Positions 1,100 to 64,000 of a DNA stretch of 64,000 bases are shown here, piece after piece (the first letter of the stretch is position 1; each line of letters begins with the position of its first letter). A program made the position numbers and the translations under genes. The notes below the pieces were generated by a model, which saw only the letters and a list, made by a program, of their open reading frames with translations, made no database searches and was not told where the DNA came from. The stretch is from a virus, in IMG/VR virus record IMGVR_UViG_3300042904_000196, positions 1 through 64,000 of that record; one strand, 5' to 3'.

Positions 1100-1606
1100 A
1101 TGCTAATAACGCTTGATCTGGTAGCAATGACCGCTCTAAGAAAAGAACTCACCCGTCTTTCAACGGCTGGTGGTGTTCTGCTCAAGGAGCAGGCGTCTGT
1201 TGACTATCAAAAGACTCAGGACTTCATGGCTATCTTGCTTAAAGTCAACGATATGGCACGAACCCTGATTCCGCAACCAGCAATGGAAGGGGTAGCTTTT
1301 AAGGTTACACTTACTGCTAATGCTACGGATGGCTTGCCTACGGCCATCAAAATGAGAACCGAGTTTTCGGGACGACCTGACTTTTTGCTCGAAGCAAGCC
1401 TACCGGAGGGAGCACCAAGTAGAGGTCTGTGTGAAGACTTTGTTTTGCGTGGCATCGCTGCTGCTTACCCGGCATTCAATATTGCTGACGTTAATCAGGA
1501 CGGTATTGTAGACGCACTCGATTTGAATATTGTGGTGTCACATTGGCAAGAAGGCACTGTGGACCCCGCCAACACTCTGGTTCTGATTCCGGAATCAACG
1601 TCATGA
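1100..1606 (+). CDS. Virion protein with dockerin-like calcium motif
   Basis: 168 residues. I chose the ATG at 1100 because GGAG lies 5 nt before it; a GTG at 1079 in the same frame has no such site. Most of the protein is unrecognised. Near the C-terminus is D-V-N-Q-D-G-I-V-D-A-L-D-L, the EF-hand-like calcium loop and helix of dockerin type I repeats, here as one copy rather than the usual two. It could fold a small calcium-bound knob on a virion protein. The last codons (LIPES) are encoded by an exact copy of the dispersed palindrome. Confidence 0.7.
   Translation: MLITLDLVAMTALRKELTRLSTAGGVLLKEQASVDYQKTQDFMAILLKVNDMARTLIPQPAMEGVAFKVTLTANATDGLPTAIKMRTEFSGRPDFLLEASLPEGAPSRGLCEDFVLRGIAAAYPAFNIADVNQDGIVDALDLNIVVSHWQEGTVDPANTLVLIPESTS
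1584..1597. repeat. Palindrome, exact copy (codes LIPES)
   Basis: TGATTCCGGAATCA in the last codons of the dockerin-like gene, read as x-I-P-E-S. Confidence 0.95.
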
Positions 1607-1704
1607 TTATTGTCGTGTCTGTCGGTGTCCCTCTGTCCTATGCACTTTCTATTGCAAGGATTGGTGACACCCTGCGTCTTTTGGAAGGTGTCTATGAATG
1701 CTAA
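1603..1704 (+). CDS. Possible 33-residue hydrophobic small protein
   Basis: An ATG at 1603 overlaps the stop of the preceding gene (ATGA) and opens a 33-residue frame beginning MIIVVSVGVPLSYAL, hydrophobic at its N-terminus, that ends inside the start of the next gene. The overlap arrangement is typical here, but there is no strong ribosome-binding site. It may act only in translational coupling of the next gene. Confidence 0.3.
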   Translation: MIIVVSVGVPLSYALSIARIGDTLRLLEGVYEC

Positions 1705-1996
1705 GCAATATGGCACGATTTCTGATGCCTACAGAATCGTAGCCATCACGGTAACAACGACCGCCACCACGCTAATCAGTTTGCTGAGAACTGCCTCGGC
1801 ACAATTTGCGTTGGGACGTATCGTTAAGGTTAGGCTGAACCCTGCGGCCGGTGTCAGCATCGGCGATGGTCACAATAGTGCTTTCATGCTTTTTAGCACA
1901 GCACTTACCATCGAGTCGCTTGGTGTCGAAGAAGTTTTGCTGAAGTGTGCTGCGGGTACTGTTGTCGTTAATGTCGAAATCTTCACTCAGGAGTAA
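1694..1996 (+). CDS. Small virion protein, unknown function
   Basis: 100 residues starting MNAKQYGTISDAY. The start is the ATG at 1694, preceded by GGAAGG; a longer frame from a TTG at 1610 lacks a ribosome-binding site. The sequence is rich in Val, Thr and Ala with beta-strand character and no membrane segment. I do not recognise the family. Its place among fibre-type genes suggests a virion-surface or fibre-associated role. Confidence 0.65.
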   Translation: MNAKQYGTISDAYRIVAITVTTTATTLISLLRTASAQFALGRIVKVRLNPAAGVSIGDGHNSAFMLFSTALTIESLGVEEVLLKCAAGTVVVNVEIFTQE

Positions 1997-2001
1997 TTTG
2001 A

Positions 2002-2418
2002 ATGGCTGCTTTTACGAAATTCCAGAAGTTTGTGGAAGACCTTGCTGAAAAGGTCCACAACCTTGGCTCCGATACGTTGACGGTTGCTCTTTGTGCTGCC
2101 GCCAACGCTCCCGTTGCCACGAACAGCGTGCTGACTGACCTGACTCAGATCAGCTACACGAATCTTTCGTCCCGTGCTTTGACGATTGCAAGCTCGGCCC
2201 ACACTACGGGCACCTATAAGCTGACGGTCAACGATCTGACCCTTACGGCTTCGGGTGGTGCGGTTGCTACGTTCAGGTATGTGGTCATTTATAATGACAC
2301 GGCTGCCAGTGACCAGTTGATCTGTTTCTTCGATCTTGGCCAAGACATCACGTTGGCGAACGGCGAAAGCATTACACTTGACTTTGACGGCTCGGCAGGC
2401 TTACTTACTCTGGCTTAA
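2002..2418 (+). CDS. Conserved phage structural protein
   Basis: 138 residues. The opening (FTKFQKFVEDLAEKVHNLGS) resembles a small beta-rich protein often encoded next to tail-fibre or head-surface genes in siphophages; that family assignment is from memory. Residues 60-135 are alternating beta strands ending in a Gly/Asp-rich hairpin. The gene directly precedes a terminator and then the large LTGN-repeat gene. The exact role is unknown. Confidence 0.7.
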   Translation: MAAFTKFQKFVEDLAEKVHNLGSDTLTVALCAAANAPVATNSVLTDLTQISYTNLSSRALTIASSAHTTGTYKLTVNDLTLTASGGAVATFRYVVIYNDTAASDQLICFFDLGQDITLANGESITLDFDGSAGLLTLA

Positions 2419-2423
2419 TCAGA

Positions 2424-2445: not shown

Positions 2446-2468
2446 GATTCTAGAATCAGGAGTAAGCT

Positions 2469-5400
2469 ATGAGTGCAACAACCGTAACCTATAACTCTAG
2501 TGGCTCAGTCCAGTCTGGCACAGTGCCTGCGTGGGCCACAGAGTTATTCGTTGAGATTCTTGGCCCCGGCTGTGCTGGCGGTAGCGGTAGCTCTGGTGGT
2601 GGTAGCCGTGGCGGTGGCGGTGGTGCTGCTGGTACGTACCTTGCTCGTCTTTTGACACTCACGGCAAGTAGCACATACTATTGTAATGTTCCGGCTGGTG
2701 GTGCTGCTGGTGCCGTGAATACCAATGGTGGTATCCCTGCTAGTCCAGCATGGTTCAATACGTCGAACACGGCACCCGGCTATAATACCGATCCAACGAA
2801 CAATTTGGCCTGCCACGCCGATACAAATGGTGGTGGCCGCTCCGGAACAAACAGCGGTACAGGTGGAACTGGTCCTATATCGTCTGCTGTTACAACCATT
2901 ATTAACGACGGTAACGGAATCGTTCGGCACGGCGTGAATGGACAAACCCGACCGGCAAACACTCAAGGTGGTGCTGGTGGTTCAGGTGCTGGTCACGGTG
3001 GAGATGGCCTAACTGGAACATCAGGCACGGGCGTCGGTCCTGCCGGTGGTTTCATTGGTGCTGGAACCTTACAGGGTGGTGCAGGTGGTAGCGGTGGGGC
3101 CTCTGGTGTCGGTGGTAGTGCAGGCAACTTACCTTGTGCTGGTGGTGGTGCTGGTGGTGCTGCTGGCGGTCTTGGTGCGGCCGGTGCTAACGGTCGAATC
3201 TACGTCCACTACGAAAATGAACTTGCGTCCAATCGTGTCAGTTACCTTGCAAGTGGGACAGGTGCTAATGGAGCAGGTACATCGACAAGTGCATCTCTTG
3301 CTGTAACAGCAGGTAAATTCATTCTTGTTACGGTTTTTGCTAGGTTGTACAACTCAACAGGGACTCCTGTTGTCGGGACAATAAGCTGTTCCGATGGCGT
3401 GAATTCGTATACCGCTGAAACTCAAGTTGCGATTGTTTCAGGAACGACTCCATCATATAGTGTACGTACTTTTTGGGCTTTTGCTGCATCCACAACCACG
3501 TTGACGATTAGCGTTGACCATAATGGCTCCACATACAATCAAACTGCCCACACAACGGTTAGTGCCTACACATTCGATAATGTCCATGCCACGACACCGA
3601 TTCGCAACTCAGACCACACATTCGGTTCGGAAAGTACCCCAACAGATAATGCCGCCATTGATGGCGACATGTTGGTTCTGAACATTTTGAATCAAACTGC
3701 TACTGATGGTGCACGTTTCAAATTCCCGGCCAAGAAAACGAGCCTACGTTCTGCCTACCAAAATGTTACAGAAGATGGCACAGAACAAATCCGTTATGTA
3801 GACGGTAACACTGCTCCGAACGCATATGCCGGTGTATATGTTCTGACCCTTCAACCCGCAACGGCTGGTGCGTCCAATGAACCTATGGACCCCGGATCGT
3901 ACACCCTGACCGGCAACGCCATGATTCGGCAACGGTCTGTGGTGCTATCTGCAGGTTCCTTTGCTCTCACTGGTAACGCTGTATCAGCCATTCGCTCGTA
4001 CGCTTTGAGTGCTGGCTCCTTTGCTCTAACTGGTAATGCTCTACTCCTGCAACGGAGTGTTGTAGCCGTAAGCGGAGCCTATACACTTAGTGGCAACACG
4101 CTGCTTAGGGCGTACAGTACGCCGCACACAGCCGGTAGCTACACGCTAACCGGCAACAGTTTGCTAATCAGTCGCTCATCGACGCTGGCTGTTGGTACGT
4201 ATGCCTTAACAGGTAACGCATTATTAACTAGTCGCTCAGTTTTGCTTAGTGCTGGCTCCTTTACCTTAACAGGTAACGATGTCAGTGCCGTGCAAACCAT
4301 TCCAATGGTCGCTGGCAGTTACACTCTAACAGGTAACAGTCTGCTGGTCAGCCGATCTAGCAAGATTGATTCCGGAATCTTTACCCTAACCGGTAGTGAT
4401 TTGTCCCGAAGCTTGAGTAGGGTTTTCGCTGCAGGCTCCTATGTTCTGACAGGCAACACACTTGCAACGATCCGTGGACTACCGCTTAGTGCCGGTTCGT
4501 TTGCTCTTAGTGGCGGTGCATTAAGCCTTAAGATTCCACTCAGTGCCGGTTCCTACGTTCTCACGGGTAACGATTTAAGCGTCGGACAGACTGCCCCGAT
4601 GGACGCTGGAAGCTATACCCTGAGTGGTAGTACCTTACTGGTCAGCCGAAGCAGCAAAATTGATTCCGGAATCTTTACCCTAACCGGTAACGATTTGCAT
4701 AGGAATCTTAGTAGAGTATTTGCCTCGGGCTCCTATAGCCTTACAGGTAATACTCTGCTGGCTGCTCGCAGTGTGCCACAAGGCAGTGGCAGCTATGCTC
4801 TTACCGGCAACACGCTGCTTAGTCAGCGAAGTGTCGTACTAAGTGCTGGCTCCTTTGTCTTGACGGGTAACACGCTCAATGCCATCCGAAGCTATCCTCT
4901 TGAAAGTGGCTCTTATGCTTTGAGTGGCATAGCCTTAACGTTGCAACGTAGTGTGGTGCTTGCCTCCGGGTCATTTGTTCTTGCCGGTGGCGACCTTGAA
5001 CTTCTTGAAAGTGGCGTCCATGCCCTCGACGGTGGTTCCTTTGTTTTAAGTGGCAACAATCTAAGCCTCCAACGCACCAAGCTAATTGGTGCTGGCTCAT
5101 ATTCCCTAACCGGGAATCCTGTTTTGTTGCTACGCTCCGTTGCTCTGACATCTGGTAGTTTTGCTGTATCCGGTAATGCCCTCAATGTGACCACCTCAAA
5201 GGTGTGTAACACAGGCTCATACATCATGAGCGGTAACGCTCTGGTGTCGCAACGTGTGGTGGTCTTGGGCACCGGTAGTTACACGCTTACCGGCAACGCT
5301 ATGGACTTCCAAGCTGCCGGTAACGAAACTTTGGCCGCTGGCACGTTTGCTCTCACGGGCAATCCGCTGCTAAGCCAACGGACCGTGCTACTTAGTGCAG

Positions 5401-21295: not shown

Positions 21296-23841
21296 TGCGT
21301 TGCCTATGCAGGTACATTTTGGCTACAAACTGTGATGGACCCGGTAGTCCGCCAACAGTCTATGTAACACTCAAAGCCCTTGAGGGTATTGTTACGGAGA
21401 AGTGGTTCGGCCTTCAAACGAAGGATGGATTCTGGTGCTACAGCATCGATCCTTCCGATCCTTCGGTATGCGAAACACCGGCCAATGCTGTAATCATTCG
21501 GACCTTAGGAAGTGTTACGCTGTATGACGACTGTGACTGTGCTCTCGGTGATCCCCATGCTTACCCTCGCGGGTATGTGATACCGGGACAGAAAACAGGC
21601 GATCCGATTTTAGGTGGTACGGGCGGTACCCCGGTTCCGGGAAACACTGGAAACGATGGAACCGGGGTGCCTGCACTGGGTATTGAAGGTACACCTTGCG
21701 ATGATACCTTGGACAATCCCCCGGAAGTGTGGGGTGTCATCCTTGGAACGACCACAGGATCGGTGGTCTACAGGGTTGGTCGTTGGTGTTACTCGTTTGA
21801 CTTAACCGATACGCCGACGACGATCCCCGGAACGGCCATGAAAATCTGGCTCACCAACAACGATCAGACATGTGAAGAATGTGTTTTCGGTATCCCGGTC
21901 GAGTATTGCGGACGTGGCGGAGCAAGCAATGTCCCGCTCTTTGTTCACATTCCCGACGCACCTGCAACGGAAATGTTCTTTGTCTATAACGGGGCCTGTG
22001 TCCGGTTTGATCCGGACCGGGCTCCCGAGGTTGTACCCGCTACGGGTCGCTTTGTGACTCCGAGGGACGAGTACACCGATTGTGAGGATTGTGATTCCGG
22101 AATCATTTCGACTCCTTGCTCAGGCCAAGATAGTAACTATCCTAAGCTATGGGTACGGGAGCCGTATATTCCTTTGGAAGATTGTGTTGACCGGGTTAGT
22201 GGTTACTTAATGCATTTTAATGCCGAGGGTACACGGGTTGCAAAACCCGCTAACTATGTCGATTACATTCCCCGAAGAGACTTTGAGACATGCGACGATG
22301 CTCGTTGCGGTGTAAAACGCAAAGGCAAAGGGAAGCAGTGGTACATCTGTCCGACGTTTGCAGGTAAGGAATACGTTAAGAATTTTTGGTCCATCGAGGA
22401 AGATATTCCTGATTTGGATACAGCGTATTTCAGGGTCATTAACAACGTCCCTTACTACATGCCTGCCGGACCCTTGCACGAGTTGCCGAATGATGCCAGA
22501 ATCATTGCGGTGATTGCAGAGTACGAAGATTGTATTGAAGCCATCGACGACGGGAGTAACTTTCCAACCGATCCTGATGACGATGATGATAATGATAGAC
22601 CTGACGACGATCAGGACGGTGATCCTGATGCCGATGAAGACGAGGATGAAGATGGTACACCGGATGGGCCTCCCGGTGGTCCGGGTACCGGCGGTGAAAA
22701 CAACGGCGGTGAAGACGATTCTGATGATGGCAATGAAACGCCTAATTCGTATTGTCAAGAACATAAGATAGCGTGCTACAATAAAACACGCGATTGTTTC
22801 GATGGAAGTATCCTCAATTGCAGGATGCCAAACATCAAACGTGGTTCCGTTGCACACCTGAACAACGATGAATGTTTTGAATCCATTGCCCATAACGGTG
22901 ATCTGTTGCCGAGTTGCTTCGATGCCGGGCAACCACTTGAGGGCCTCGCGGTTGCTTATACGGCTTCGTCGTGTACATCGTGCAAGCCACCCAAGAGGTG
23001 CTATACGTCGTGGAGGTTCCAGTGTGACCCGCCCACCATGACGTACCTTGCAACATACTGTAGCGATAGTGACCTTAGCACAGACTGGGTTCCAGATGGC
23101 GACGATTTCATTAAGTTCGTTCAGGGTGGAGTATGTAACTTAACGTCGCATTGTCAGACACCTTCGTCTGATCCGCCTTTGGCTCCGCCTGCGAACCCGA
23201 CACATCTGTGCCCGAAAGATTGCTATGTGCAGTGGAAGTACGATTGCCAAACTGAGGCCATAACGGTTGTCAGCAAAACGTGCACGGCAACAGATTTGAC
23301 TAGTGACTGGACCCTCGTAGGTGAACACTTCTACAAGACCGTAAAGGGTGCAACGTGCAGCGTTGACGGAGACTGTGTCGATGGCACGACTCCGAGTCCG
23401 CCTGTTTCGGTTGTCGGGTGTGCAAACTGTGCATGTCCGGGTGCGGTGTTCATGGAAGACATTACGATCAGCCCGGATGGATCGGTTGAATACTTCAATG
23501 GTGGTGCCCCGCTACCTGCGGGCAATTATCGATTGTGTTATTTGAGCGGTGGTTACTTTCATACGCCCTCAGGTGAATATACCCTTGGCGATGAAACTGA
23601 TTTTGAAACAACCTCAGCGTTCTTCCCTGCGGCTGGTACGCGAAGCTGGGGCGGTAGTTTCGGCAGTAACCACGCATCGATGGCTGCTCTTGAAGCCTAT
23701 CACCGTGACCCGGCTAACATACCGTGTGAATGTTTCGTTGGAGATGATTCCGGAATCGGTTATATGCAGTTTGTTTTGGCCAATGGCGATTATGCAGACT
23801 ACTCAGGTACCTGCGTGTTCAGATTGTGGAGTTGCGACTAA
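21295..23841 (+). CDS. Cysteine-rich tail-tip protein with Asp-rich linker
   Basis: 848 residues; ATG at 21295 overlaps the previous stop (TAATG) and has GGAG upstream. It is very rich in cysteine with repeated C-x2-C pairs (DDCDCALGD, CEECVFG, CEDCDSG, CTSCKPPKRCY, CANCAC), suggesting metal or disulfide knots. Several segments share W-C-Y-S-[FI]-D. Residues ~425-485 form an acidic linker dominated by D, E, G and P with D-x-D-x-D-G runs that could bind calcium. It is coupled to the tail hub, so a receptor-contact or tip role is inferred. I know no exact family. Confidence 0.65.
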   Translation: MRCLCRYILATNCDGPGSPPTVYVTLKALEGIVTEKWFGLQTKDGFWCYSIDPSDPSVCETPANAVIIRTLGSVTLYDDCDCALGDPHAYPRGYVIPGQKTGDPILGGTGGTPVPGNTGNDGTGVPALGIEGTPCDDTLDNPPEVWGVILGTTTGSVVYRVGRWCYSFDLTDTPTTIPGTAMKIWLTNNDQTCEECVFGIPVEYCGRGGASNVPLFVHIPDAPATEMFFVYNGACVRFDPDRAPEVVPATGRFVTPRDEYTDCEDCDSGIISTPCSGQDSNYPKLWVREPYIPLEDCVDRVSGYLMHFNAEGTRVAKPANYVDYIPRRDFETCDDARCGVKRKGKGKQWYICPTFAGKEYVKNFWSIEEDIPDLDTAYFRVINNVPYYMPAGPLHELPNDARIIAVIAEYEDCIEAIDDGSNFPTDPDDDDDNDRPDDDQDGDPDADEDEDEDGTPDGPPGGPGTGGENNGGEDDSDDGNETPNSYCQEHKIACYNKTRDCFDGSILNCRMPNIKRGSVAHLNNDECFESIAHNGDLLPSCFDAGQPLEGLAVAYTASSCTSCKPPKRCYTSWRFQCDPPTMTYLATYCSDSDLSTDWVPDGDDFIKFVQGGVCNLTSHCQTPSSDPPLAPPANPTHLCPKDCYVQWKYDCQTEAITVVSKTCTATDLTSDWTLVGEHFYKTVKGATCSVDGDCVDGTTPSPPVSVVGCANCACPGAVFMEDITISPDGSVEYFNGGAPLPAGNYRLCYLSGGYFHTPSGEYTLGDETDFETTSAFFPAAGTRSWGGSFGSNHASMAALEAYHRDPANIPCECFVGDDSGIGYMQFVLANGDYADYSGTCVFRLWSCD
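22092..22105. repeat. Palindrome, exact copy (codes DSGI)
   Basis: Exact TGATTCCGGAATCA in the cysteine-rich gene, read C-D-S-G-I-I. Confidence 0.95.
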
Positions 23842-26239: not shown

Positions 26240-26795
26240 GATAGTGTCCAATCTGCTTCAAAATTTCCATAAGGTTGTTGTAAAGATCACGCAGCGTACC
26301 ATTATTCTTGACAATGAAATCCCAAGGTGCATCCTCAGGAATTTCATGGTCCACACTTAGTCCTGTTCTTAGGGGAGCGGAATCCCTGTCAATGCGTATC
26401 AAAACGCCCTTGCGTTGCTTGACAGTGTTGAACTCTTCCATGAAACGGGTGTCACTGAACAGGATGATTCCGGAATCATTTAGCCCATGGAGAGCAGACC
26501 GGGCAAATGTCTCCGTATGAATTTGTCTACAGTGGTGCGTACCGAAGACGATCCAGAGTTCAACGACATTCATGTTGAGTGCTGGGATAATCTTTTTCCG
26601 TTCCTCGGGGTTCTTCTCATAGTAGTCAGCACTCTGAACACCGGCCCAACCATACAGCTTGTGGCAAGCATCCTTCAAAGGTGATGCCCATGCTGTCTTG
26701 ATACTGGGGATGTTCTTGGAACGGAAGTACGTGAGAAGCAATTCACACGCGGCGTCTTTGCCGGTGCGACTTCGTTGTCCGAAAGCAATAATCAT
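26232..26795 (-). CDS. Deoxynucleoside monophosphate kinase
   Basis: 187 residues. The P-loop is G-Q-R-S-R-T-G-K-D-A-A, with Asp after Gly-Lys as in phage T4 gp1-type dNMP kinases. An R-F-M-E-E-F segment and a polar C-terminal lid follow. It would phosphorylate dNMPs for phage DNA synthesis, alongside dUTPase, ribonucleotide reductase and thymidylate synthase. An exact palindrome sits in the middle of the gene (NDSGII). Confidence 0.82.
   Translation of the reverse strand: MIIAFGQRSRTGKDAACELLLTYFRSKNIPSIKTAWASPLKDACHKLYGWAGVQSADYYEKNPEERKKIIPALNMNVVELWIVFGTHHCRQIHTETFARSALHGLNDSGIILFSDTRFMEEFNTVKQRKGVLIRIDRDSAPLRTGLSVDHEIPEDAPWDFIVKNNGTLRDLYNNLMEILKQIGHYHG
26465..26478. repeat. Palindrome, exact copy in dNMP kinase gene
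   Basis: TGATTCCGGAATCA; on the - strand gene it codes N-D-S-G-I-I, before the L-F-S-D-T-R strand. Confidence 0.95.
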
Positions 26796-27241: not shown

Positions 27242-27404
27242 TTTGTTCCTCTTTGATTCTGAAATCATTATTGAGTTTTGGAATGTTGACCCCGATGAAC
27301 TTACCGGGCTCGTATTCAATATAACGCATATTACCAAGCTCAAGGGCGTACATAAGAATTTTCTTGTCGCCGTCTTTCAGAGATTTGAGAATTTCTCTTA
27401 ACAT
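27192..27404 (-). CDS. Small protein, unknown function
   Basis: 70 residues (MLREILKSLKDGDKKILMYA), ATG at 27404 overlapping the stop of the primase-helicase gene (TAATG), so translation is coupled. The last ~50 nt overlap the dUTPase gene. A palindrome variant encodes N-D-F-R-I-K. No family recognised. Confidence 0.6.
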   Translation of the reverse strand: MLREILKSLKDGDKKILMYALELGNMRYIEYEPGKFIGVNIPKLNNDFRIKEEQNGWSIGTLREATNGNG

Positions 27405-30100
27405 TATTCTGCACCCGGACGCAGCCAACCCAACTTATCGACAACCCAAGGCTTGCCAGCAGGAGTCTCTGCTTTGAAGCTTATGTTGCCGATGTAGTTT
27501 TGGCCTCCATCGAAGGTCGCCTTACCGTAGGGGTATTGTGGCGGTAAGGATTCCTTAATCTTTTTGCGGGTCCATGCCGGTACGTCTTCCGGTTCAAGGG
27601 TAAGCACAAAGCGTTCTGAAAATTCCAAGAACGAGATACTAGCTCCCTTGATTGGGAAACAGTTTTCATCAATAAAGCGTTCAAGCTCTGTCCTGTTGCC
27701 TGCTTGAACCTGAAACTTCATATCGGACATGATAACAGGCAAATTCAATCTATCATTGCTCTTGGGCAACTCTAATCGTAACAAGTCGGCCAAAAGGTCC
27801 GGGGCTTCCTTTTCAAGGAGAGGAAAAAGGTCTTTCTTAGGAATCAAATTGAGCATATCCAGTGGAGGCACATGCAACATCGTTATCCGGGTGTCGCCGG
27901 GGAAGATTGGACAGTACCGGTGGTCATTCGCACATTGCACCCAGTGGGTACAATTGGGAACATGAAAGGGGGCCTGATACATGTGTCTAACGTTGAGATG
28001 CTTACTGGTGACCCAGTCTTTGATTCGGTTGTAAGCAACCTTATTTCCCTGAAGGTCGGTTTCTTCAACAACACATAGGACCGCATGTTGCAACTCTCCG
28101 TTGAAGCCGCTTGAATTCGTAAGAGCCAAGTCCGCACGCTGATATCCACTTGTGACGAGAAGTGCAATAGCTTCGTGAAAAGATGACTTTCCAGTATTTT
28201 GCTCGCCATAGAAAAAGAGATATGGGAGCGGTTCAAGAGGTTCTTTGAGAAGTGAAGCGAGCCAACATTTAAGATAATCCGCTCCGGTGGCAAGTCCGTT
28301 AGCTTGGCACCAAGGGTGAGATTTGATTGCGGAATCAATTGACTGTCCGCAATGCTGAAAGATACGGGACCATGTGGGGTAGGAGTAACTGTCTTTACCC
28401 ACAGAAGGGAGGAAGCGTAACTGAGCTGCGTTTCGATTCCATTTTCTATCTCCGGGGTACTCGGGTTGAAAAGGCCGATTAACGAGTTGCCAGCAACGCA
28501 TAACGGAAGCACCGAGAATATCCTTAATTTGCCCGGCGTCTTTTCCCATGTAGTTGAGGGCATCCTTAACATTGTCTTTAGACTCGTTATGCCATTCTCC
28601 GGTTTTATTGAGATACCATCCAAAGTCTTCTCCTTTTTCGGTAACCACGTGACGGAGCAAGTCGTCGGTATTTTCTACCTCGGACTCGGTACTCGGGGTG
28701 ACACTCATACGTTCTATACGTGACCAAAAACCTTTCTTCTCAAGGTAGCCTTCCATCTCTGATGGGGCATCCTTGTCGGAGGCTTCGATCTTAAAAATCA
28801 AACGGCCATCTTTGTGCTGGCTCAACATAGCGGATCGGTGTTCCAACTTTTTGGGATAGGGAATCTTGACGCCTAGGGCTTTAGCGGCTTGCTCGGCTTT
28901 GGTGACGGAGGGGAACACAAAATTGCCCTTTTCATCCTCGACGCCTGAAAACGATCTGCAAGCGGTTCGGAAGTCGGGGTCAACATTATAAAGACACCGG
29001 GTCCATCCAGAAGTGTCCTGATCCCATGTGGTAGCTTCGGCCACACCACGAGTATGACGCCGGATTGACCATCCGCCCTTACGCAACGGGAAAGCGAAAC
29101 AGTTCTGGTCTGATCCTCGCTCGGTTCCTTGGGCAAGGGTGTCAAAGATTCCTCGCAAGCCGAGTTCACTGTGTGCCCGCTTGAGGTCGGCTGTATGACA
29201 GACGAGCATGTTCCGGTCACTGTCCCACCAGAAAAGGCAGTTTTCTTTTTGAAGCCAGACAATAAGAGCCTTATGTTCTTCATCGCGTTGGAGAATCGTT
29301 TGCTGACCACAGACAAGATCAAAGTCAGTCACCTCTTTATCATTTGATTCCGGCATCAAAGATGTCGTTGCACGCTTACGCTTATTGGTAACAACGCCAA
29401 TATGGTCTTTCCAGTTAAGCGGAACCTGCGTCAAAGGGACGCCTTCCTTAATAACTTTCAGACCTTCGGGGTTGTTCAGCATCTTGCGATGCCACACCCA
29501 CATATTGCCGCCGCACGTATCCACCTTAGCGAGGAAGTCGTAGCCCGTTAAAGCGCTCAGGTGCCCCAAAATTGATCGGGCAAGGGCTGCGTGCTCAGTG
29601 TGATTACTCGTTGGTACAGGAGGATCGAGGGTGACATATAGATGTAGCCCTTTACCACCTGTAGATCGTCTGACCGTGATCCATGGAATTGATGTGACGG
29701 CAGACTGAACGGCACCCAATTCTTCCGTGGTGAGCTTTTTCTCGTGTTTGTCAGAATGGCCTGTAATAGCGTCGAAGTCGTAAGCCACCCAACGGGAAGC
29801 GCGTTCTCGCCAATTCCAGCCAGTGAGTCCGATACCTTCAACATGCTTCTCCAAATCGAATTTGATTTCGGAATCAGTATACTCAGGTTCGCTGGCCGCG
29901 TTCCAAGGGATTCTGAAAGCCTTCCACGTGGTGAGCCCGTCAGAGTATCCCCGCCACACGCGGCCATTAAATTCACCTGTGACCATTTCTCCGTTATCTT
30001 GTGCGACATTCACCTGACATTCCATACCTAGATTGTATGCGTCTGCCAACGGTGAATAGTGTTTCAGGAAGCGTTGTACAGCTTCACTACGTGTAGGCAT
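27404..30100 (-). CDS. Primase-helicase (AEP primase + SF3-type helicase)
   Basis: 898 residues. The N-terminal third has archaeo-eukaryotic primase features: V-A-Y-D-F-D (metal-binding DxD, ~residues 105-110) and R-R-S-T-G-G-K-G-L-H-L-Y. The C-terminal third has a helicase core with Walker A F-Y-G-E-Q-N-T-G-K-S-S (~634-642), an acidic C-V-V-E-E-T-D Walker B, and a C-A-N-D-H-R-Y sensor. The combination makes primers and unwinds the replication fork. It is followed by dUTPase and dNMP kinase in one operon. Palindrome copies lie at 28324, 29345 and 29863. Confidence 0.9.
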   Translation of the reverse strand: MPTRSEAVQRFLKHYSPLADAYNLGMECQVNVAQDNGEMVTGEFNGRVWRGYSDGLTTWKAFRIPWNAASEPEYTDSEIKFDLEKHVEGIGLTGWNWRERASRWVAYDFDAITGHSDKHEKKLTTEELGAVQSAVTSIPWITVRRSTGGKGLHLYVTLDPPVPTSNHTEHAALARSILGHLSALTGYDFLAKVDTCGGNMWVWHRKMLNNPEGLKVIKEGVPLTQVPLNWKDHIGVVTNKRKRATTSLMPESNDKEVTDFDLVCGQQTILQRDEEHKALIVWLQKENCLFWWDSDRNMLVCHTADLKRAHSELGLRGIFDTLAQGTERGSDQNCFAFPLRKGGWSIRRHTRGVAEATTWDQDTSGWTRCLYNVDPDFRTACRSFSGVEDEKGNFVFPSVTKAEQAAKALGVKIPYPKKLEHRSAMLSQHKDGRLIFKIEASDKDAPSEMEGYLEKKGFWSRIERMSVTPSTESEVENTDDLLRHVVTEKGEDFGWYLNKTGEWHNESKDNVKDALNYMGKDAGQIKDILGASVMRCWQLVNRPFQPEYPGDRKWNRNAAQLRFLPSVGKDSYSYPTWSRIFQHCGQSIDSAIKSHPWCQANGLATGADYLKCWLASLLKEPLEPLPYLFFYGEQNTGKSSFHEAIALLVTSGYQRADLALTNSSGFNGELQHAVLCVVEETDLQGNKVAYNRIKDWVTSKHLNVRHMYQAPFHVPNCTHWVQCANDHRYCPIFPGDTRITMLHVPPLDMLNLIPKKDLFPLLEKEAPDLLADLLRLELPKSNDRLNLPVIMSDMKFQVQAGNRTELERFIDENCFPIKGASISFLEFSERFVLTLEPEDVPAWTRKKIKESLPPQYPYGKATFDGGQNYIGNISFKAETPAGKPWVVDKLGWLRPGAE

Positions 30101-30441
30101 TAATTTTTCACCTTAAAAGTGTGTCCGTTCCTCAAATAGATATCACAAATGCGGGCAGCCCATGCACCCGCTATCGCGGCACGCTCAAAAGCCGAGTGCC
30201 CATGGTAAATCGAGATGAGCCATTCGGGTAATGTGATTCTGGAATCAATATGCCCGGAAATCATATAGCCAGCGTAGGCTTCCAAGGTACGCAGACTGTA
30301 GGTGTTACGGTCGTGGTCCAGCGTATAACCCTGCATAATCTGCTTAAAGTGCTCATATGTGATGAGCGTGATGCCCGATAGCCCATCTGTTGACGATAAT
30401 TGGTTGAAAACAGCTCTCTTCTCAGTCATTCGTTTTGCCAT
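30100..30441 (-). CDS. Unknown protein, first gene of - strand operon
   Basis: 113 residues; its stop overlaps the primase start (TAATG). The sequence is helical with a conserved-looking S-G-H-I-D-S-R-I-T-L-P-E-W in the middle; H-I-D-S-R-I comes from a palindrome copy at 30234. Another palindrome (30445) lies just upstream of the start, a possible operator. The promoter-proximal position suggests an early regulatory or replication-accessory role. No family recognised. Confidence 0.6.
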   Translation of the reverse strand: MAKRMTEKRAVFNQLSSTDGLSGITLITYEHFKQIMQGYTLDHDRNTYSLRTLEAYAGYMISGHIDSRITLPEWLISIYHGHSAFERAAIAGAWAARICDIYLRNGHTFKVKN

Positions 30442-30481
30442 AAGTGATTCCCGGAATCAAAAGTAACCTTTGAAACGCATA

Positions 30482-30539: not shown

Positions 30540-30550
30540 TGCGAAATTGC

Positions 30551-30911: not shown

Positions 30912-30925
30912 TGATTCCGGAATCA
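30912..30925. repeat. Palindrome, exact copy in ParB-1 leader
   Basis: Exact TGATTCCGGAATCA 20 nt before the ATG of the first ParB-like gene, next to the second motif (30883-30896). A candidate autoregulatory site. Confidence 0.95.
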
Positions 30926-31988: not shown

Positions 31989-32633
31989 ATGACTGACATT
32001 GCTCTCGTTGACCTCGGTGCCCTCGGTTTGCCTAACTCTGAAGAATTTGCTCTTGTTTCGACTGCTGGTGGAGCCTATCTGCCACGCCTCCAACTCGGTG
32101 GCTCGACATCGGACGCCGTGAAGCAACGCAAAGTGCAGATGGGCAACCACTATCTCGTTGAGAACGATACGCCTACCGATTTGGGGAGTTCCGTTGATGT
32201 TATCGTGTTGGGCTGGATGTCCAAAGCTTTGGACGTTTCTGGTGCCAAGCCGATTTCAAATTTCGATGTCCACAGCGAAGGGTTCAAGAAAATTCAGGCT
32301 AAGTCTGCTGTCAAGGATAGCAACTGCATGTATGGCCCGAGCTATCTGGTGTACATTCCTTCGGTCGGCAAGTTCGCGGAGTATTTCATGTCGTCCAAGA
32401 CGGCACGGAAAGAATCCAAGAATATGCAAGCCCGACTGGGGATGGCCGCTACCCTTAGCTCTGAACTGATTGAAACCACGGAATATTCATGGTTTGGTCC
32501 GATTATTCGGCCGTGTTCGACGCCCATTACTCCCCCGAGCAGTGCGGACATCGTATCGGCCAATGAGAAGTTCCAAGCACAGAAGCAACAGGTTGTGGAA
32601 ACCGTTGCACCTGCCTCTGACCGCAAACGCTAA
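31989..32633 (+). CDS. Conserved phage protein, unknown function
   Basis: 214 residues with TAAGGAA upstream. It has the pattern P-R-L-Q-L, then D-V-I-V-L-G-W-x-x-K-A-L-D, N-C-M-Y-G-P-S-Y-L-V-Y-I-P-S and F-x-S-S-K-T-A-R-K-E. I associate this with a conserved phage family of unknown function in replication modules; that link is from memory. It sits alone between two terminators next to ParB-1 and could be a DNA-associated protein such as a single-strand binder. Confidence 0.6.
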   Translation: MTDIALVDLGALGLPNSEEFALVSTAGGAYLPRLQLGGSTSDAVKQRKVQMGNHYLVENDTPTDLGSSVDVIVLGWMSKALDVSGAKPISNFDVHSEGFKKIQAKSAVKDSNCMYGPSYLVYIPSVGKFAEYFMSSKTARKESKNMQARLGMAATLSSELIETTEYSWFGPIIRPCSTPITPPSSADIVSANEKFQAQKQQVVETVAPASDRKR

Positions 32634-32686: not shown

Positions 32687-33037
32687 ATGCTTTCTGACCT
32701 TATCGGCAAGACATTCACTAAGATTGAGAATTTGGGTGATCGCCTTATCTTCCATACTGATTCCGGAATCAAGTACGAAATGTACCATGAGCAAGACTGT
32801 TGTGAGCAAGTCTCCCTAGAAGATATCGCGGGCGATTTGGACGACCTGATCGGTGTGCCCATTGTGAGGGCCGAAGAATCGTGTAAGGAAGACCCGGCTG
32901 GCCCGGATAGCTGTAGCATGTGGACGTTTTACCTGTTTGCTACGTCCAAAGGTTACGTAACCTTGAGGTGGTACGGCCACTCTAACGGTTACTATGGCGT
33001 GGGTGTTAGTCTTAAAAGGATGGAGTATGGAACCTGA
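32687..33037 (+). CDS. Conserved phage protein (DUF7448-like)
   Basis: 116 residues, TAGGAG upstream. The C-terminal half (W-T-F-Y-L-F-A-T-S-K-G-Y-V-T-L-R-W-Y-G, then S-N-G-Y-Y) is a recognisable conserved motif of a small phage/bacterial family of unknown function. The N-terminal part contains H-T-D-S-G-I-K-Y-E-M, where D-S-G-I is coded by an exact palindrome. Confidence 0.7.
   Translation: MLSDLIGKTFTKIENLGDRLIFHTDSGIKYEMYHEQDCCEQVSLEDIAGDLDDLIGVPIVRAEESCKEDPAGPDSCSMWTFYLFATSKGYVTLRWYGHSNGYYGVGVSLKRMEYGT
32758..32771. repeat. Palindrome, exact copy (codes DSGI)
   Basis: Exact TGATTCCGGAATCA in the DUF7448-like gene, read T-D-S-G-I-K. Confidence 0.95.
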
Positions 33038-45290: not shown

Positions 45291-45663
45291 TTCCGTAATC
45301 AAAGCTATCGGGCATGATGGTTCCGATATCGTCCAACCTGAACTGCCTGAGCCTGATGGCAGGCGTGGCTTCCACCCCCAAGAGCTGATTAAGGCTGCCT
45401 ACGATCATGGGTTCCACATGGTATGGGTTGAAGCCCAGCCAATATTCTTTCATGGTGGAAAGCTGATGCCGGTTAAGGTAGACCACCTGCATAGAGTGTT
45501 TGATAAGACCCGCGGAATCGTGCTCGCTATCCGTGACGGTAAGCGTCACGCCTTTGCCAAGATTGATTCTCGAATCATTAACCCCACATTTGGGAAGGTC
45601 TGGTCGCTTCACGACTGGACCATCGAACACTATCTGTATATGATTCCCGGCATCAAAACGTGA
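45223..45663 (+). CDS. Papain-like cysteine peptidase (C39-like)
   Basis: 146 residues from the ATG at 45223, overlapping the glycosyltransferase gene by 68 nt. The start of the fold is N-R-W-S-C-M-P-T-A-L-A-I-L-L-G (Cys-helix of C39-type peptidases, Cys ~7). The expected His is in G-K-R-H-A-F-A-K, and an Asp in L-H-D-W-T. Phages use such small cysteine peptidases in lysis, head processing or host takeover. Palindrome copies code F-D-S-V-I-K and I-D-S-R-I. Confidence 0.65.
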   Translation: MIQPNRWSCMPTALAILLGSTFDSVIKAIGHDGSDIVQPELPEPDGRRGFHPQELIKAAYDHGFHMVWVEAQPIFFHGGKLMPVKVDHLHRVFDKTRGIVLAIRDGKRHAFAKIDSRIINPTFGKVWSLHDWTIEHYLYMIPGIKT

Positions 45664-45669
45664 TTTTGC

Positions 45670-45683
45670 GGAATCGAATCAAA
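45670..45683 (-). repeat. Second motif GGAATCGAATCAAA, second locus
   Basis: Part of the 18-bp string TTGCGGAATCGAATCAAA shared with 30547-30564. The inverse TTTGATTCGATTCC lies 109 nt downstream at 45779-45792. Confidence 0.85.
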
Positions 45684-45944
45684 TTCGACCATCAAAATAT
45701 TTTGGAAAGTGACTTGCGAAACCATATAGAAGGTGGTAACCTACTGGTGGGGAACGGAGCGGTGATTCGGGAATCAAATTTGATTCGATTCCTGAGTTAT
45801 TCGTTTTGATTCCCGGCATCAATGTTCTTTGACAATTGAGAGTAAGATTGGAACCGAAACCTAGCCTAGGCTAGGATAGGGAAGTCCCCCATACCTGTGA
45901 TATGGTGGTAGAATGAGAATGAAAATCGCCGTGACCCGCAAGGT

Positions 45945-45958
45945 TGATTCCGGAATCA
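45945..45958. repeat. Palindrome, exact copy in gene-free region
   Basis: Exact TGATTCCGGAATCA, outside any convincing coding sequence. Confidence 0.95.
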
Positions 45959-46122
45959 TACCGTCGTGATGACGTTAATGAAGTCTGGAAAAGATACGGT
46001 TTGAAGTCATAAGTGCACCATGCAGTGATTGCTGGGAAGCACGCCAGATGGATAACACGTGGTAGCGAAAAGTAAAATGCTTCTATCGAGCCCTTGCACA
46101 GGATTGGAACAGGGATGCAACC

Positions 46123-46136
46123 TGATTCCGGAATCA
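46123..46136. repeat. Palindrome, exact copy in gene-free region
   Basis: Exact TGATTCCGGAATCA, 178 nt after the previous exact copy. Confidence 0.95.
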
Positions 46137-46366
46137 ACGTTAGTAACAGGTTTCAATCGAGTAACTAATCAAACGTGAAGTAAAGCGGTGTGACATGGCT
46201 TAACGAGCCCCCGGCAAACGCTGCACCCCGAAGGGTGGCACATTGTGATACACGTTTGGCTACCAAGGTAATGAGTAGCCTGAAGATGATGTTACGTTGT
46301 GAGCAACCCGTTGGGTTGTGTGTGGTTTGCAACCACAGATCGCAGAATTTGATTCGCAGAATCAAA

Positions 46367-46434
46367 GAGCACGTAGTTCTCGGAGATAACTCCCCTAACG
46401 GGGAACGGTGCGGGTTCGACTCCCGCCGTGTTCT
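46367..46434 (+). tRNA. tRNA-like element with shortened anticodon arm
   Basis: The acceptor stem GAGCACG pairs with CGTGTTC (one G-T). The T arm is perfect (GCGGG-TTCGACT-CCCGC). A 3-bp D stem GTT/AAC closes a loop with GG. Where a 17-nt anticodon arm and variable loop belong there are only 18 nt, folding as CCCC-TAAC-GGGG. That is 3-4 nt too short for a normal anticodon loop, so no anticodon can be read. CCA is not encoded. It may be a decayed tRNA, a processing signal for upstream RNA, or the 3' end of the RNA candidate. Confidence 0.45.
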
Positions 46435-46460
46435 TTTCCCTCTTTTTAATGGAGATTATT

Positions 46461-46658
46461 ATGCTTAAGCAATGTCCGGTATGTAAGGAACTAGTGTCCT
46501 ACCTCCAGCCGATCCATGATGCTCGTGGCATCTACGTTGACTGCACATGCGGTAGTGAGGCGTGTGAGAAGGCGATCATGTCCAAATACCGTTCAGATAT
46601 TTTCATTGATGCCAACTATGAAACAGACGAACAGATAGACGAAGACCGACCCTTTTAA
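46461..46658 (+). CDS. Small zinc-binding protein
   Basis: 65 residues from the ATG at 46461, preceded by GGAG. Two cysteine pairs (C-P-V-C-K at the start; C-T-C-G-S-E-A-C in the middle) suggest one zinc site; the acidic C-terminus ends DEQIDEDRPF. It lies directly upstream of the thymidylate synthase gene. No family recognised. Confidence 0.65.
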   Translation: MLKQCPVCKELVSYLQPIHDARGIYVDCTCGSEACEKAIMSKYRSDIFIDANYETDEQIDEDRPF

Positions 46659-46667
46659 GGAGTCCAC

Positions 46668-47537
46668 ATGTATTTGATGGAACCGTATGATGATGCCCTT
46701 GCTAAGATTCTTACTGAAGGAGTAATAACACCCACCAGAGCCGGACCGACACTTATGATTCCGGGAATCAGTTGCACCTATGACCTAAGCACGGGTCACC
46801 TGCCGTTGCTAACGGGCCGGAAGATGTTTCCCAAGTCAGTGTTCGCGGAACTGCTTTGGTTCCTCTCGGGCAGCACCATGAATCAGGCCCTTGAAGCCTT
46901 GGGCTGCAAGTTTTGGGGCCGGTGGTGCAACGAAGAGGACCCACGGTACATTGCCTTATGTAAGAGGTACGGGTATCCCAACGGCGACTTTGGCCCCATC
47001 TACGGGTTTCAGTTGCGTCACTTCGGTGCCACGTATGTCAACGGTTTGAGCAACTACCACGGGCAAGGCTTCGACCAGTTGATCTACATGCTGGACCTCC
47101 TTGAACATGATCCGCATAGTAGGCGGAACCTGTTCAGCTTGTGGAATCCCGCACAGTTACCCATGATGGCGTTGCCGCCGTGCCACTACACCTATCAGGT
47201 GTTGGTGGACGGGAACAAGACCTTGCATGGTGTGCTGACGCAACGCAGTTGTGACTTCCCGGTGGGTGTGCCTGCTAATGTGCAGTTCTATAGCACCTTG
47301 ACACGCCTCTTTGCCCGCCATGTTGGGTACAAGGTTGGCACCTTCACCCACAACACCGTGGATGCTCACATTTACGTGAATCAGGTGGACGCCGTGGAAG
47401 AGTACCTTGCAAGGCCCAAGCCCGGTTCGCCGTTCTTTGACCTTGGCAATGATAAGTTCTTCGGTACGACCATGGACAATTTTCAGGTGTTTGACTACAA
47501 CCCCGAACCCGTCATTGTGATGCCGGTATCAATTTGA
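46668..47537 (+). CDS. thyA: Thymidylate synthase
   Basis: 289 residues, AAGGAG upstream. Catalytic loop A-L-P-P-C-H-Y (Cys ~171), then Q-R-S-C-D-F-P-V-G-V-P-A-N and a late D-A-H-I-Y-V-N-Q. It converts dUMP to dTMP with methylene-tetrahydrofolate. The substrate comes from the dUTPase at 26804. A palindrome variant with one extra base (46756) encodes M-I-P-G-I-S; the last codons (VMPVS) come from another variant. Confidence 0.96.
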   Translation: MYLMEPYDDALAKILTEGVITPTRAGPTLMIPGISCTYDLSTGHLPLLTGRKMFPKSVFAELLWFLSGSTMNQALEALGCKFWGRWCNEEDPRYIALCKRYGYPNGDFGPIYGFQLRHFGATYVNGLSNYHGQGFDQLIYMLDLLEHDPHSRRNLFSLWNPAQLPMMALPPCHYTYQVLVDGNKTLHGVLTQRSCDFPVGVPANVQFYSTLTRLFARHVGYKVGTFTHNTVDAHIYVNQVDAVEEYLARPKPGSPFFDLGNDKFFGTTMDNFQVFDYNPEPVIVMPVSI

Positions 47538-50963: not shown

Positions 50964-51784
50964 AATTCGACGCACTATGCAAGGTCGTAGAGAGCAACCA
51001 CCTAGAAAATCAGGAGGGTCTTTTAAGACACACCAAGCTCTTCCTGTTTCCACTGAACAGTAAGCAACTCCCCCAGTCCTACACCCCGGACCAAGTGTCG
51101 CTCTTCGAGGAACAGTTCTTCCTGCCATTCAGGAACGTGACCATCGAAGATGAAACCGGCTGTACAATGCTGATCGATTCCACCGAAAACCAGAGTGGCA
51201 TCGATGGACTACGTTACTTTGTGGATTTTGTTCTCCTAGACAGCAAGACTGATTCCGGAATCAATGACTACGGAATCTGGTCCCTGTGCTTTGGCCGGGT
51301 GAAGGGCTTCAGGATCAGTGATGTGTCCCTCTGGACGCACATCGAAATCGATAGGTGCCTAGGCGGTAGCTTGCGAACGGGTGAAGTGGCCAACATCGAC
51401 AAACATGACGAGGTCATGCAGCAAGCGGCTGTGCGTAACGTGCAAACGGCTTATCAGGAGATTATGTACTTCAACACCCCTGATAGGTTCATCGTACAGT
51501 CAACCCCTCGCAGGGTGCGTGACCCTTTAACAAGCGCCAAGATTCCTCGGGCACAGGACAGGCCCAACTATATTTTGCTTTATCCAAAGCAAATTCGTGA
51601 GCGCTTCGGTATACAGGGGGATGGGGTTAATGCACCGCATCCTGTACGGAGGCACTTTCGTACCCTGAGAAGTGACTATTACACCAACAAACAAGGGCAG
51701 CGTGTCGCTGTCAAAGGATACTGGACCGGAGACACTGAAAAGGTCGTTGACGGTAGGCACTACAAAATTCTTTTAGATAGGTGA
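50960..51784 (+). CDS. Unknown conserved-looking phage protein
   Basis: 274 residues from the ATG at 50960. The C-terminal region (H-P-V-R-R-H-F-R-T-L-R-S-x-Y-Y-T-x-K, then V-V-D-G-R-x-Y-K-I-L-L-D) is a pattern I associate with phage proteins of unknown function. The middle is mixed alpha/beta. An exact palindrome codes T-D-S-G-I-N. Confidence 0.6.
   Translation: MKFDALCKVVESNHLENQEGLLRHTKLFLFPLNSKQLPQSYTPDQVSLFEEQFFLPFRNVTIEDETGCTMLIDSTENQSGIDGLRYFVDFVLLDSKTDSGINDYGIWSLCFGRVKGFRISDVSLWTHIEIDRCLGGSLRTGEVANIDKHDEVMQQAAVRNVQTAYQEIMYFNTPDRFIVQSTPRRVRDPLTSAKIPRAQDRPNYILLYPKQIRERFGIQGDGVNAPHPVRRHFRTLRSDYYTNKQGQRVAVKGYWTGDTEKVVDGRHYKILLDR
51250..51263. repeat. Palindrome, exact copy (codes DSGI)
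   Basis: Exact copy in the 50960 gene, read T-D-S-G-I-N. Confidence 0.95.
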
Positions 51785-51787: not shown

Positions 51788-52432
51788 ATGATTCCGGAAT
51801 CACTTTGGAGAAAACGGGCTGAGGAAGCTGAAGCGGCACTCGCGACGCTGCGGGCGCTGATGCCGGAGGTGCGGAATTTCGTACAGATGGTTTTTGAGTG
51901 GGAAGAGCCTGTCCCGTCAGGTCTTCATGGCTCAGTTTGGAAAAAGAAGTACGGGTGTCATGCGAATGAGCTTGCCGCAAATCTTATAGGCAAAGCCGCC
52001 ACTACACTCCTCGCCAAGCTGCCTGCAGAGGACAAATCGGAGTATGCGACGACTGCGGCTAAATGCCACTCGCACGAACACCCGGCGGGGTGCGGATGCC
52101 ACGATGGGCCGCCAGAGGTCAAGCCCGCGACTGCCGAGCCGAAGCGGGTGCGGGAGTGGCGGTTTGACCATAAAGACTTTTGGGCGGAATACCGATTCGA
52201 TGGCACGCAGGTGTGGTATCAGGAAAGCATAAATCCGATCTGGAAAAAAGTCTTTACAACGATTGAACAAATTGAACAAACGAAATGCTACCGCGAAACC
52301 ACCGTCGCGGGCAACGTGCCGGAGCGGCAGCAATTCGTGGTTGAAGTGTGCGATTCATATGAGCTAGGTGCCTTCCATGTGAAGACATCCATCGGTCCTA
52401 AATGGCTTCGTTTTGTTGCGAGGAAACCATGA
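51788..52432 (+). CDS. Paralogue A of a phage-specific pair
   Basis: 214 residues. The ATG is fused to an exact palindrome, so the protein starts M-I-P-E-S. It shares with the gene at 54634: M-x-x-F-V-Q-M-V-x-x-W-E, G-L-H-G-S-x-W-K-x-K-Y-G-C, L-A-A, a W-R-[FY] strand with W-A-E-Y-R, and C-Y-R-E-T-T. Between the blocks is a His/Cys-rich patch (CHSHEHPAGCGCHDG), a possible metal site. Base use is more GC-rich than the neighbours, a sign of recent transfer. Confidence 0.6.
   Translation: MIPESLWRKRAEEAEAALATLRALMPEVRNFVQMVFEWEEPVPSGLHGSVWKKKYGCHANELAANLIGKAATTLLAKLPAEDKSEYATTAAKCHSHEHPAGCGCHDGPPEVKPATAEPKRVREWRFDHKDFWAEYRFDGTQVWYQESINPIWKKVFTTIEQIEQTKCYRETTVAGNVPERQQFVVEVCDSYELGAFHVKTSIGPKWLRFVARKP
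51789..51802. repeat. Palindrome, exact copy containing a start codon
   Basis: The TG of the ATG at 51788 is the first two bases of the exact palindrome. The ribosome site must therefore lie in GTGAGTT upstream. Confidence 0.95.
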
Positions 52433-60373: not shown

Positions 60374-60375
60374 CC

Positions 60376-62754: not shown

Positions 62755-62775
62755 CTTATTTATTTTGGAGATAGC

Positions 62776-62952
62776 ATGAAACCTATTTCGATGTTTTTCA
62801 GTGTGCTGGCTGCACTTTGTGTGTTCGGGCTCCTGTGTGTCGGTATCTGGACCTACATGGAAGAGAAGCGCTCTATCCGTGAGGCTCAGAAACAGCAACA
62901 GGAGGCTGTCGATAGACTCTTTTGGTACAACAGAGAGAATCGTAACAGATGA
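62776..62952 (+). CDS. 58-residue membrane protein, spanin-like layout
   Basis: ATG at 62776 with TTTTGGAG upstream. MKPISMFFSVLAALCVFGLL starts one membrane helix (~5-27), then a helical charged tail (EEKRSIREAQKQQQEAVDRL). Its stop overlaps the start of a lipoprotein gene (ATGA). Small TM protein plus adjacent lipoprotein is the layout of two-component spanins, but the partner here is a hydrolase-like protein. Confidence 0.55.
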   Translation: MKPISMFFSVLAALCVFGLLCVGIWTYMEEKRSIREAQKQQQEAVDRLFWYNRENRNR

Positions 62953-63512
62953 AGAATATGCCATGGTTAGTAATGATAGTGTTAATAGGTATTTTCACTT
63001 CGTGTAAACGGGAACCGGTACCGGTGCCTCAGGACGAGACACCGGTACTTTGTTTGTATGTTAGCGGTTTGGGTGCGGACCACCTTGGGAAGGTGTACGA
63101 CCATCTGGTTCAACGCGAGCCTCTTTGGGGGCACGTTCGGTTCGCTGGTAGGGATAATTATCAGACGGATGTTAGAGACTATGTGCTTAAAAGTAGGCAC
63201 AAGAGGCTGGTAGTGATTTGCCACTCTTGGGGTTCGGCTCGGAGTGTGGAGGATTTGAAAGGGGTACCTGTGGACCTGTTGGTCCTCTACGATCCTGTTG
63301 GCTTCGACCAAGGAGCCTTGGTGGTTCCGGAATCAATCAAGCGAACAATTGTCTTTCCTAGGGAGAGAAACAGGTGGTTGGTTCCTTTTACGGCCCCTAT
63401 ACGGAGCAGCAAGCTGGGTCAAGAGATTGTCACCATAATGCTTCCGGGTGGGCACAGTGATGGTACGCTGAATGAAATGAGCTTTGGTTACATTCAATTG
63501 GAGAATAAATGA
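62949..63512 (+). CDS. Lipoprotein with alpha/beta-hydrolase fold
   Basis: 187 residues. The signal peptide (LVMIVLIGIFTSC) ends in a Cys lipobox-like site. The mature part has V-V-I-C-H-S-W-G-S-A (nucleophile elbow, G-x-S-x-G variant with C-H-S-W-G), D-P-V-G as a possible acid position and G-G-H-S near the end as a possible His. A secreted esterase or lipase is inferred. Palindrome 63322 codes V-V-P-E-S. Confidence 0.65.
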   Translation: MKNMPWLVMIVLIGIFTSCKREPVPVPQDETPVLCLYVSGLGADHLGKVYDHLVQREPLWGHVRFAGRDNYQTDVRDYVLKSRHKRLVVICHSWGSARSVEDLKGVPVDLLVLYDPVGFDQGALVVPESIKRTIVFPRERNRWLVPFTAPIRSSKLGQEIVTIMLPGGHSDGTLNEMSFGYIQLENK

Positions 63513-64000
63513 GTTATCTAAGAAAACTGCAAAGAGTCTGTAACGTTACCTACAGGGGTGAGTGGCTCATCAACGGTAAGCCCTTAGCGCATGGGGATAA
63601 TGCTAAGGTGTTTGATGTTGCTGGTATATTGGTGAGTAACCGGGGAGCGGCTCTGGAGTTTTTGAAACAGAAACTCTGCGAGGAAGGGTTAGCCGTCATG
63701 ATACGCTCCGCGGTGCCGTTGGTTTGGGAGGGTGAATGGATCATTGATGGCAAGAAGCTTGAGGATTATAACTTCTGGAACAGGCTCTTTGCTGTAACCG
63801 GTATTCCGGTGCCTCCCTTTCAAACGAGAGACACGATGCTTGCGTGGGTGAAGAGTAGACTGGGCGACTATTATGATACACTCCCCTATGACGAAGTTAC
63901 CATTAAGGTGTTGAGGGAGTTCAAGGTCCCGCAAAGCCTGATTGAAATGAACAATATGTGGAAGACCAAGGAGGGTCAACTGATTCCGGTATCAAAACTG
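63509..64000 (+). CDS. Unknown protein, N-terminal part (continues beyond window)
   Basis: ATGA overlap start at 63509; the frame is open to the window edge (164 residues seen). Starts MSYLRKLQRVCNVTYRGEWL. It has two similar W-L/W-I-x-G-K segments (GEWLINGKPL and GEWIIDGKKL), which suggests an internal repeat. The last codons (LIPVS) come from a palindrome variant. Confidence 0.6.
   Translation, partial: MSYLRKLQRVCNVTYRGEWLINGKPLAHGDNAKVFDVAGILVSNRGAALEFLKQKLCEEGLAVMIRSAVPLVWEGEWIIDGKKLEDYNFWNRLFAVTGIPVPPFQTRDTMLAWVKSRLGDYYDTLPYDEVTIKVLREFKVPQSLIEMNNMWKTKEGQLIPVSKL

Follow-up and report, generated by a model that had tools for sequence, protein, structure and literature searches.

Mobile elements often encode ParB-fold proteins that lack a ParA partner, mostly with no assigned purpose. 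The genome of an uncultured virus of bacteria (a 74,484-bp record, whose first 64 kb constitute the window analysed here) raises the question of what such proteins may do in a phage: a 14-bp palindrome, TGATTCCGGAATCA, recurs throughout it, and two of its genes, parB-A and parB-B, encode ParB-family proteins (Table 1). Are the palindromes maintained by selection, which protein reads them, and what would the phage gain from them? The record also encodes a GpA-type terminase, a major head protein, DNA polymerase A, a sigma factor, a helicase, and a primase/helicase-like protein; genes were called with a simple codon-usage script, so start positions are approximate. ParB-A and ParB-B both exceed the Pfam cut-offs for ParB_N followed by HTH_ParB, the domain order of the ParB/Noc/KorB family, and parB-B is located upstream of DNA polymerase A.

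Abundance and spacing of the palindrome

The window contains 13 exact copies of the palindrome, the number given in the initial annotation, and the whole record contains 16. When up to three mismatches are allowed, the window holds 83 copies, whereas dinucleotide shuffles average 3.2 (maximum 11), which confirms the initial observation; the reported occurrence of the near-copies on both strands is meaningless for a palindrome. Over the whole record, 16, 39, 23 and 18 copies have zero, one, two and three mismatches, respectively. Among the 78 copies with at most two mismatches, G2 and C13 are invariant, and a weak T/A-rich flank surrounds the copies. A control that had been proposed at the outset, in which synonymous codons are permuted while proteins and codon usage are kept (coding DNA only), gives 0.025 exact copies and 0.59 copies with at most one mismatch, compared with 10 and 42 observed in coding DNA. 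Non-coding or partly coding DNA, about 11% of positions, holds 19 of the 78 copies. A 15-bp variant, TGATTCnnnGAATCA, is present five times with at most one mismatch (0.24 expected). An Rfam scan of the window gave no match.

The sites, roughly one per 0.9 kb, are also spaced more evenly than random: the coefficient of variation is 0.64–0.67 (0.64 for copies with at most two mismatches), and none of 5000 simulations was equally even. The widest gap between copies with at most three mismatches is 2,384 bp, and from the first copy to the last every point lies within about 1.2 kb of some such site.

Table 1. Positions of the palindromes and associated genes in the window
Feature	Position	Strand	Remarks
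Exact palindrome	1584..1597		
Exact palindrome	22092..22105		
Exact palindrome	26465..26478		
Exact palindrome, putative autoregulatory operator	30912..30925		about 20 bp 5' of the parB-A start codon
Exact palindrome	32758..32771		
Exact palindrome	36815..36828		
Exact palindrome	39764..39777		
Exact palindrome	42743..42756		
Exact palindrome	44609..44622		
Exact palindrome	45945..45958		within the 45.6–46.8 kb cluster
Exact palindrome	46123..46136		within the 45.6–46.8 kb cluster
Exact palindrome	51250..51263		
Exact palindrome	51789..51802		
Other copies, 1–3 mismatches	spread over 1584..63994		
15-bp version, TGATTCCCGGAATCA	30445..30459		shortly before the leftward operon (genes 30441..27404)
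Site cluster	45564..46770		partly in the non-coding stretch 45664–46460
parB-A, orphan ParB-family protein, 320 aa	30946..31908	+	Pfam ParB_N 4e-12, HTH_ParB 3e-11
parB-B, second ParB-family protein, 279 aa	37816..38655	+	Pfam HTH_ParB 1e-11, ParB_N 1e-7
Gene 31, primase/helicase-like, leftward operon	27404..30100	-	DUF5906 1.5e-14; PHROG DNA primase 2e-14
Gene 34, conserved	31989..32633	+	directly 3' of parB-A

Within the cluster listed in Table 1, 14-bp sites start at 45564, 45763, 45945 and 46123, and 15-bp sites at 45641, 45807, 46350 and 46756; the locus could be an origin or a centromere-like locus. This cluster, together with the ParB family membership of the two proteins, is what speaks for the palindromes being a centromere-like label, or a packaging or identity label, by which the genome would be segregated or selectively packaged. 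We consider such a role quite improbable: the sites are even over the whole genome rather than gathered at a single locus, and no ParA-type ATPase was found with the PF13614 profile in G000 (G001 has one sub-threshold match). A tRNA-like match lacking a readable anticodon (46366–46435) adjoins the cluster.

Related phages and their own palindromes

Relatives were gathered via PolA and then via ParB-A and ParB-B alignments; a search with the single parB-A sequence gave no match. PolA retrieved 13 virus contigs whose PolA is 44–53% identical, and parB-A and a second ParB gene are kept in all 13, with HTH_ParB proteins at both loci. The exact TGATTCCGGAATCA is absent from the first-read stretches of these contigs, many of which carry an enriched palindrome of their own. 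The ParB alignments added further loci, giving 114 contig groups, of which 103 exceed 8 kb, and a de novo scan of each group with all 5-base half-sites and spacers detected a strong lineage-specific palindrome in roughly half (about 46); the contigs are mostly fragments, such that many motif calls are based on about 20 kb. These palindromes have a common architecture, with cores of 13, 14 or 15 bp and parS-like half-sites (TGATTC, TGATTT, TGATTG, TGATTA, TGATG, TGATC, TGATAC, TGATAT, TGAGTT, TGTTA, AGTTTA, TAGTTT, and ACTCTA), and a density similar to that in this phage, about one per kilobase. In all 47 groups compared (including L110, whose motif was judged a GC artefact and excluded), the count at the motif's own spacer exceeds that at every same-phase spacer, with a median of 9-fold; the enrichment is therefore tied to a single spacer and not to codon phase. 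Roughly one in two groups that have parB-A, including long ones such as G009 and G011, showed no clear palindrome; G009, G011, L134, L139 and L144 have both parB-A and parB-B and no clear genome-wide palindrome.

Among named phages that have ParB-like genes, VarioGold, Yong-DA, Dmitri and MT835476 show no comparable GAT-type palindrome, and their GC-rich CG patterns look like codon-phase effects left in by the Markov null. A tblastn search with PolA against 50,697 phage records gave no match, and hence no named phage of the group was found among those records. Nothing matched in a near-identity DNA search with 24 kb of the phage, and a search of genome contigs returned three weak matches and no clue to the host.

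In pairs of contigs with a common motif and 70–87% identity, the sites usually occur at matching positions of the alignment. In the three best cases, 24 of 28 sites (L137/L138), 22 of 27 (L199/L202) and 16 of 22 (G007/G008) are in place, and core identity exceeds that of the flanks (0.979 versus 0.865, 0.957 versus 0.834, and 0.932 versus 0.722, respectively). Retention is poor in some other pairs: two of nine sites in L216/L226, none of four in G004/L166, and none of five in G002/L166, where the core lengths differ. Because positions are kept and bases are conserved above the flanks in related pairs, the sites are under selection; the palindromes are genome-wide and selected. The expectation that relatives would keep the sites thus holds for close relatives, and elsewhere the exact word is often absent, replaced by a palindrome of the same architecture and similar density.

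The replacement of the word bears on a restriction-modification or methylation signal, which the two GANTC-type words within the palindrome (GATTC and GAATC) might suggest. In relatives the word is swapped for GATG, GTTA, TGATAC or CTCTA, which largely contradicts this reading, and GATTC/GAATC occurs 327 times in the record, far above the number used by the palindromes; we regard such a signal as almost certainly not the explanation.

The protein that reads the sites

Site placement relative to genes differs sharply between the two ParB loci. For parB-A, 32 of 46 groups have a site between -150 and +10 of the start (8.9 expected), compared with 9 of 41 for parB-B (7.7 expected). When 13 gene families were scanned with starts set by homology, parB-A ranked first (35 of 46 groups, P=1e-16), followed by its neighbours, the divergent gene 31 (P=2e-8) and the downstream gene 34 (P=2e-6); pooled-count P values are optimistic, as contig groups are not independent. 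Gene 31 diverges from parB-A in every one of 99 contigs, and gene 34, for which neither Pfam nor PHROG gave a match, runs in the same direction as parB-A in all 97; in the relatives the divergent parB-A/primase region holds 130 sites where 40 are expected. Between gene 32 and parB-A of this phage there is also a 40-bp direct repeat (30482–30564; 2.1 copies) with GGAATC half-sites inside.

ParB-A is the leading candidate for binding the palindromes, chiefly because sites placed in this way are what an autoregulator would be expected to have. The results support the initial annotation in so far as the palindromes are binding sites kept by selection over the whole genome and probably recognised by a helix-turn-helix protein of the phage, with ParB-A as the likely protein. 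They do not support the HIP1 or uptake-sequence mechanism raised there, because the word differs from one relative to the next and its copies are concentrated at the promoter of parB-A.

The relationship of ParB-A to known ParB proteins is evident in both sequence and fold, which match ParB, Noc and KorB in the PDB. Its AlphaFold model (mean pLDDT 82) has ParB, Noc and KorB chains as top structure matches, with whole-chain TM-scores that are low to modest (0.2–0.5), taken to reflect predicted differences in domain arrangement. The first strand of the model spans residues 5–11 with no helix before it, in the N-terminal part where Noc has its membrane-binding amphipathic helix. ParB-A aligns to Caulobacter crescentus ParB (CcParB); among the positions that vary in its recognition helix is the counterpart of R173, a residue with a known role in specificity (PMC7383237). 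Residues E102, R103, E135 and R139, which mutant effects show to be needed in CcParB (PMC8367383), read L, H, A and K in the aligned ParB-A; the CTP motifs GERR and ENxxR read GLHR and (A/T)NxHK in ParB-A, and GFRR/GYRR and ENLxR in ParB-B. A CTP-driven clamp is therefore doubtful for ParB-A, since residues that CcParB needs for CTP binding or hydrolysis are lost; ParB-A bound stably at many sites, or cooperating with ParB-B, would also fit.

Could ParB-B, or a mixed ParB-A/ParB-B complex, bind the palindromes instead, with ParB-B supplying a working CTP switch? ParB-B retains canonical-looking GxRR and ENxxR motifs, most of its members have R at the CcParB R173 position, and motif distance correlates at least equally well with its helix: partial Mantel values for covariation of motif and recognition helix are 0.37 for ParB-B and 0.26 for ParB-A, the signal for ParB-A is gone without L130/L131, and the two proteins are not separated by this analysis. 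The recognition helix of ParB-B, however, is near constant (SRGWVQ[VI]R) although the phages' words differ (GATG, GATC, GATTG, and GATTT), and its start lacks the enrichment of sites, so we think a ParB-B reader unlikely. Among 572 columns in a per-column association, the top one is N172 of ParB-A, next to ParB specificity residue 201 in the alignment. The ACTCTA clade (L131 and L184) is the sole strong-motif clade in which N172 is changed, to H, making this substitution a candidate specificity change; the association carries little weight, as it depends mainly on that clade.

Proposed role and known systems

We consider it probable that the orphan ParB-A recognises the palindromes as its cognate sites, and that these function across the genome much as Noc sites and KorB operators do. 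In a ParB-A dimer, each helix-turn-helix would contact one parS-like half-site (TGATTC in this phage), the outer ends of the two half-sites being 13–15 bp apart across the family. Through the sites at the divergent early promoter region, ParB-A would be able to regulate its own gene and probably the leftward primase operon, while the further, evenly spread sites may turn the whole phage genome into a loading platform. KorB slides up to 1.5 kb (PMC11790492), and the maximum distance to a site in this phage is within that range. ParB-A could in this way cover the genome, and so organise the DNA or damp transcription along it; we infer both its spreading or sliding and the purpose of such coverage. 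In 32 of 39 groups the gaps between sites are more regular than chance would give, which points to coverage of the genome rather than of promoters alone.

Several known systems resemble this one in part. ParABS systems share the ParB fold and a similar half-site (TGTTTC in parS, TGATTC here); by comparison, no ParA was found here, tens of sites lie over the genome, the core is shorter, and the resemblance of TGATTCCGGAATCA to parS, TGTTTCACGTGAAACA, is limited to the half-site. Noc and KorB are closest in family and layout, and the stoperators of Cluster A mycobacteriophages are closest in phage setting. Noc of Bacillus (PMC7383237, PMC4331003) is likewise a ParB_N and HTH_ParB orphan without its own ParA and has palindromes (NBS) scattered across the replicon; here the setting is viral, there is about one site per kb, sites are concentrated at the protein's own promoter, CTP motifs are degenerate, and the sites have 13–15 bp cores in place of the 16-bp NBS, TATTTCCCGGGAAATA. 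KorB of plasmid RK2 (PMC11790492) is a transcription-linked member of the ParB family with several OB sites per replicon in an autoregulation-like placement; its partner is KorA, with OA operators. The present case has tens of evenly spread sites, in a phage with no integrase found, and CTP binding is uncertain.

Cluster A stoperators, to which the palindrome had also been likened, are dispersed phage sites with a drifting consensus, present also at the repressor's own locus (PMC6550527, PMC9283540), and as a functional analogy the comparison stands. They are, however, asymmetric 13-bp sites oriented with transcription, number up to about 30 per genome, and belong to temperate phages whose repressor is unrelated to ParB (PMC6550527, PMC9283540), whereas the sites here are palindromes and neither an integrase (PF00589, 11 contigs) nor a ParA (PF13614, G000) was found. 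The same comparison bears on silencing by a repressor that blocks transcription elongation genome-wide from dispersed sites, for which the autoregulatory placement and a consensus differing between relatives, as in Cluster A (PMC6550527), both speak. The palindromic form of the sites and a ParB-like candidate binder count against it, as does the lack of an evident lysogenic state to maintain, with no match to the integrase profile in the 11 contigs (this record included), which may be incomplete. We judge stoperator-like silencing somewhat unlikely as a separate explanation; if ParB-A is the silencer, it overlaps with the ParB-A reading preferred here.

Lineage-specific sites together with a ParB-like protein suggest that the virus has a means of its own for coating, organising or silencing its DNA. 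More tentatively, with belief nearly balanced and leaning slightly against, we propose that this widespread, uncultured phage group makes its own sequence-specific chromatin, in which an orphan ParB-type protein with an altered nucleotide pocket occupies even sites whose sequence and half-site spacing shift from lineage to lineage. If so, the lineages would together form a series of naturally evolved changes in protein-DNA specificity, and related phages might be mutually incompatible. Passages of a survey of orphan and phage ParB-like proteins (PMC12704722) describe phage ParB-fold proteins without ParA whose function is open and mention no genome-wide site sets; here likely sites are identified. 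A literature search covering few subscription papers found no phage ParB with genome-wide sites, and in that literature the initial impression that the palindrome had not been described holds. In dozens of lineages, with words that differ, genome sequences thus reveal the likely targets of a ParA-less ParB-fold protein. This permits direct tests of the way in which the DNA specificity and half-site spacing of a ParB-type protein shift in nature, and of whether a virus covers its whole genome with one.

Some further features of the phage were observed. A third ParB-like protein, beyond the window (record 66851–68053; L005:3852-5054), has a weak ParB_N match and no HTH_ParB match. A sigma-70-like protein is encoded at 35615–36133, and a second protein (56536–57162) has weak matches to sigma region 4 or helix-turn-helix domains. 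Three neighbouring similar genes of 117–130 aa (49650–50763) are, by eye, apparent tandem paralogues, and a 1112-aa protein (2469–5807) contains many degenerate AGSFALTGN-type repeats, similar to a repeat in the first gene.
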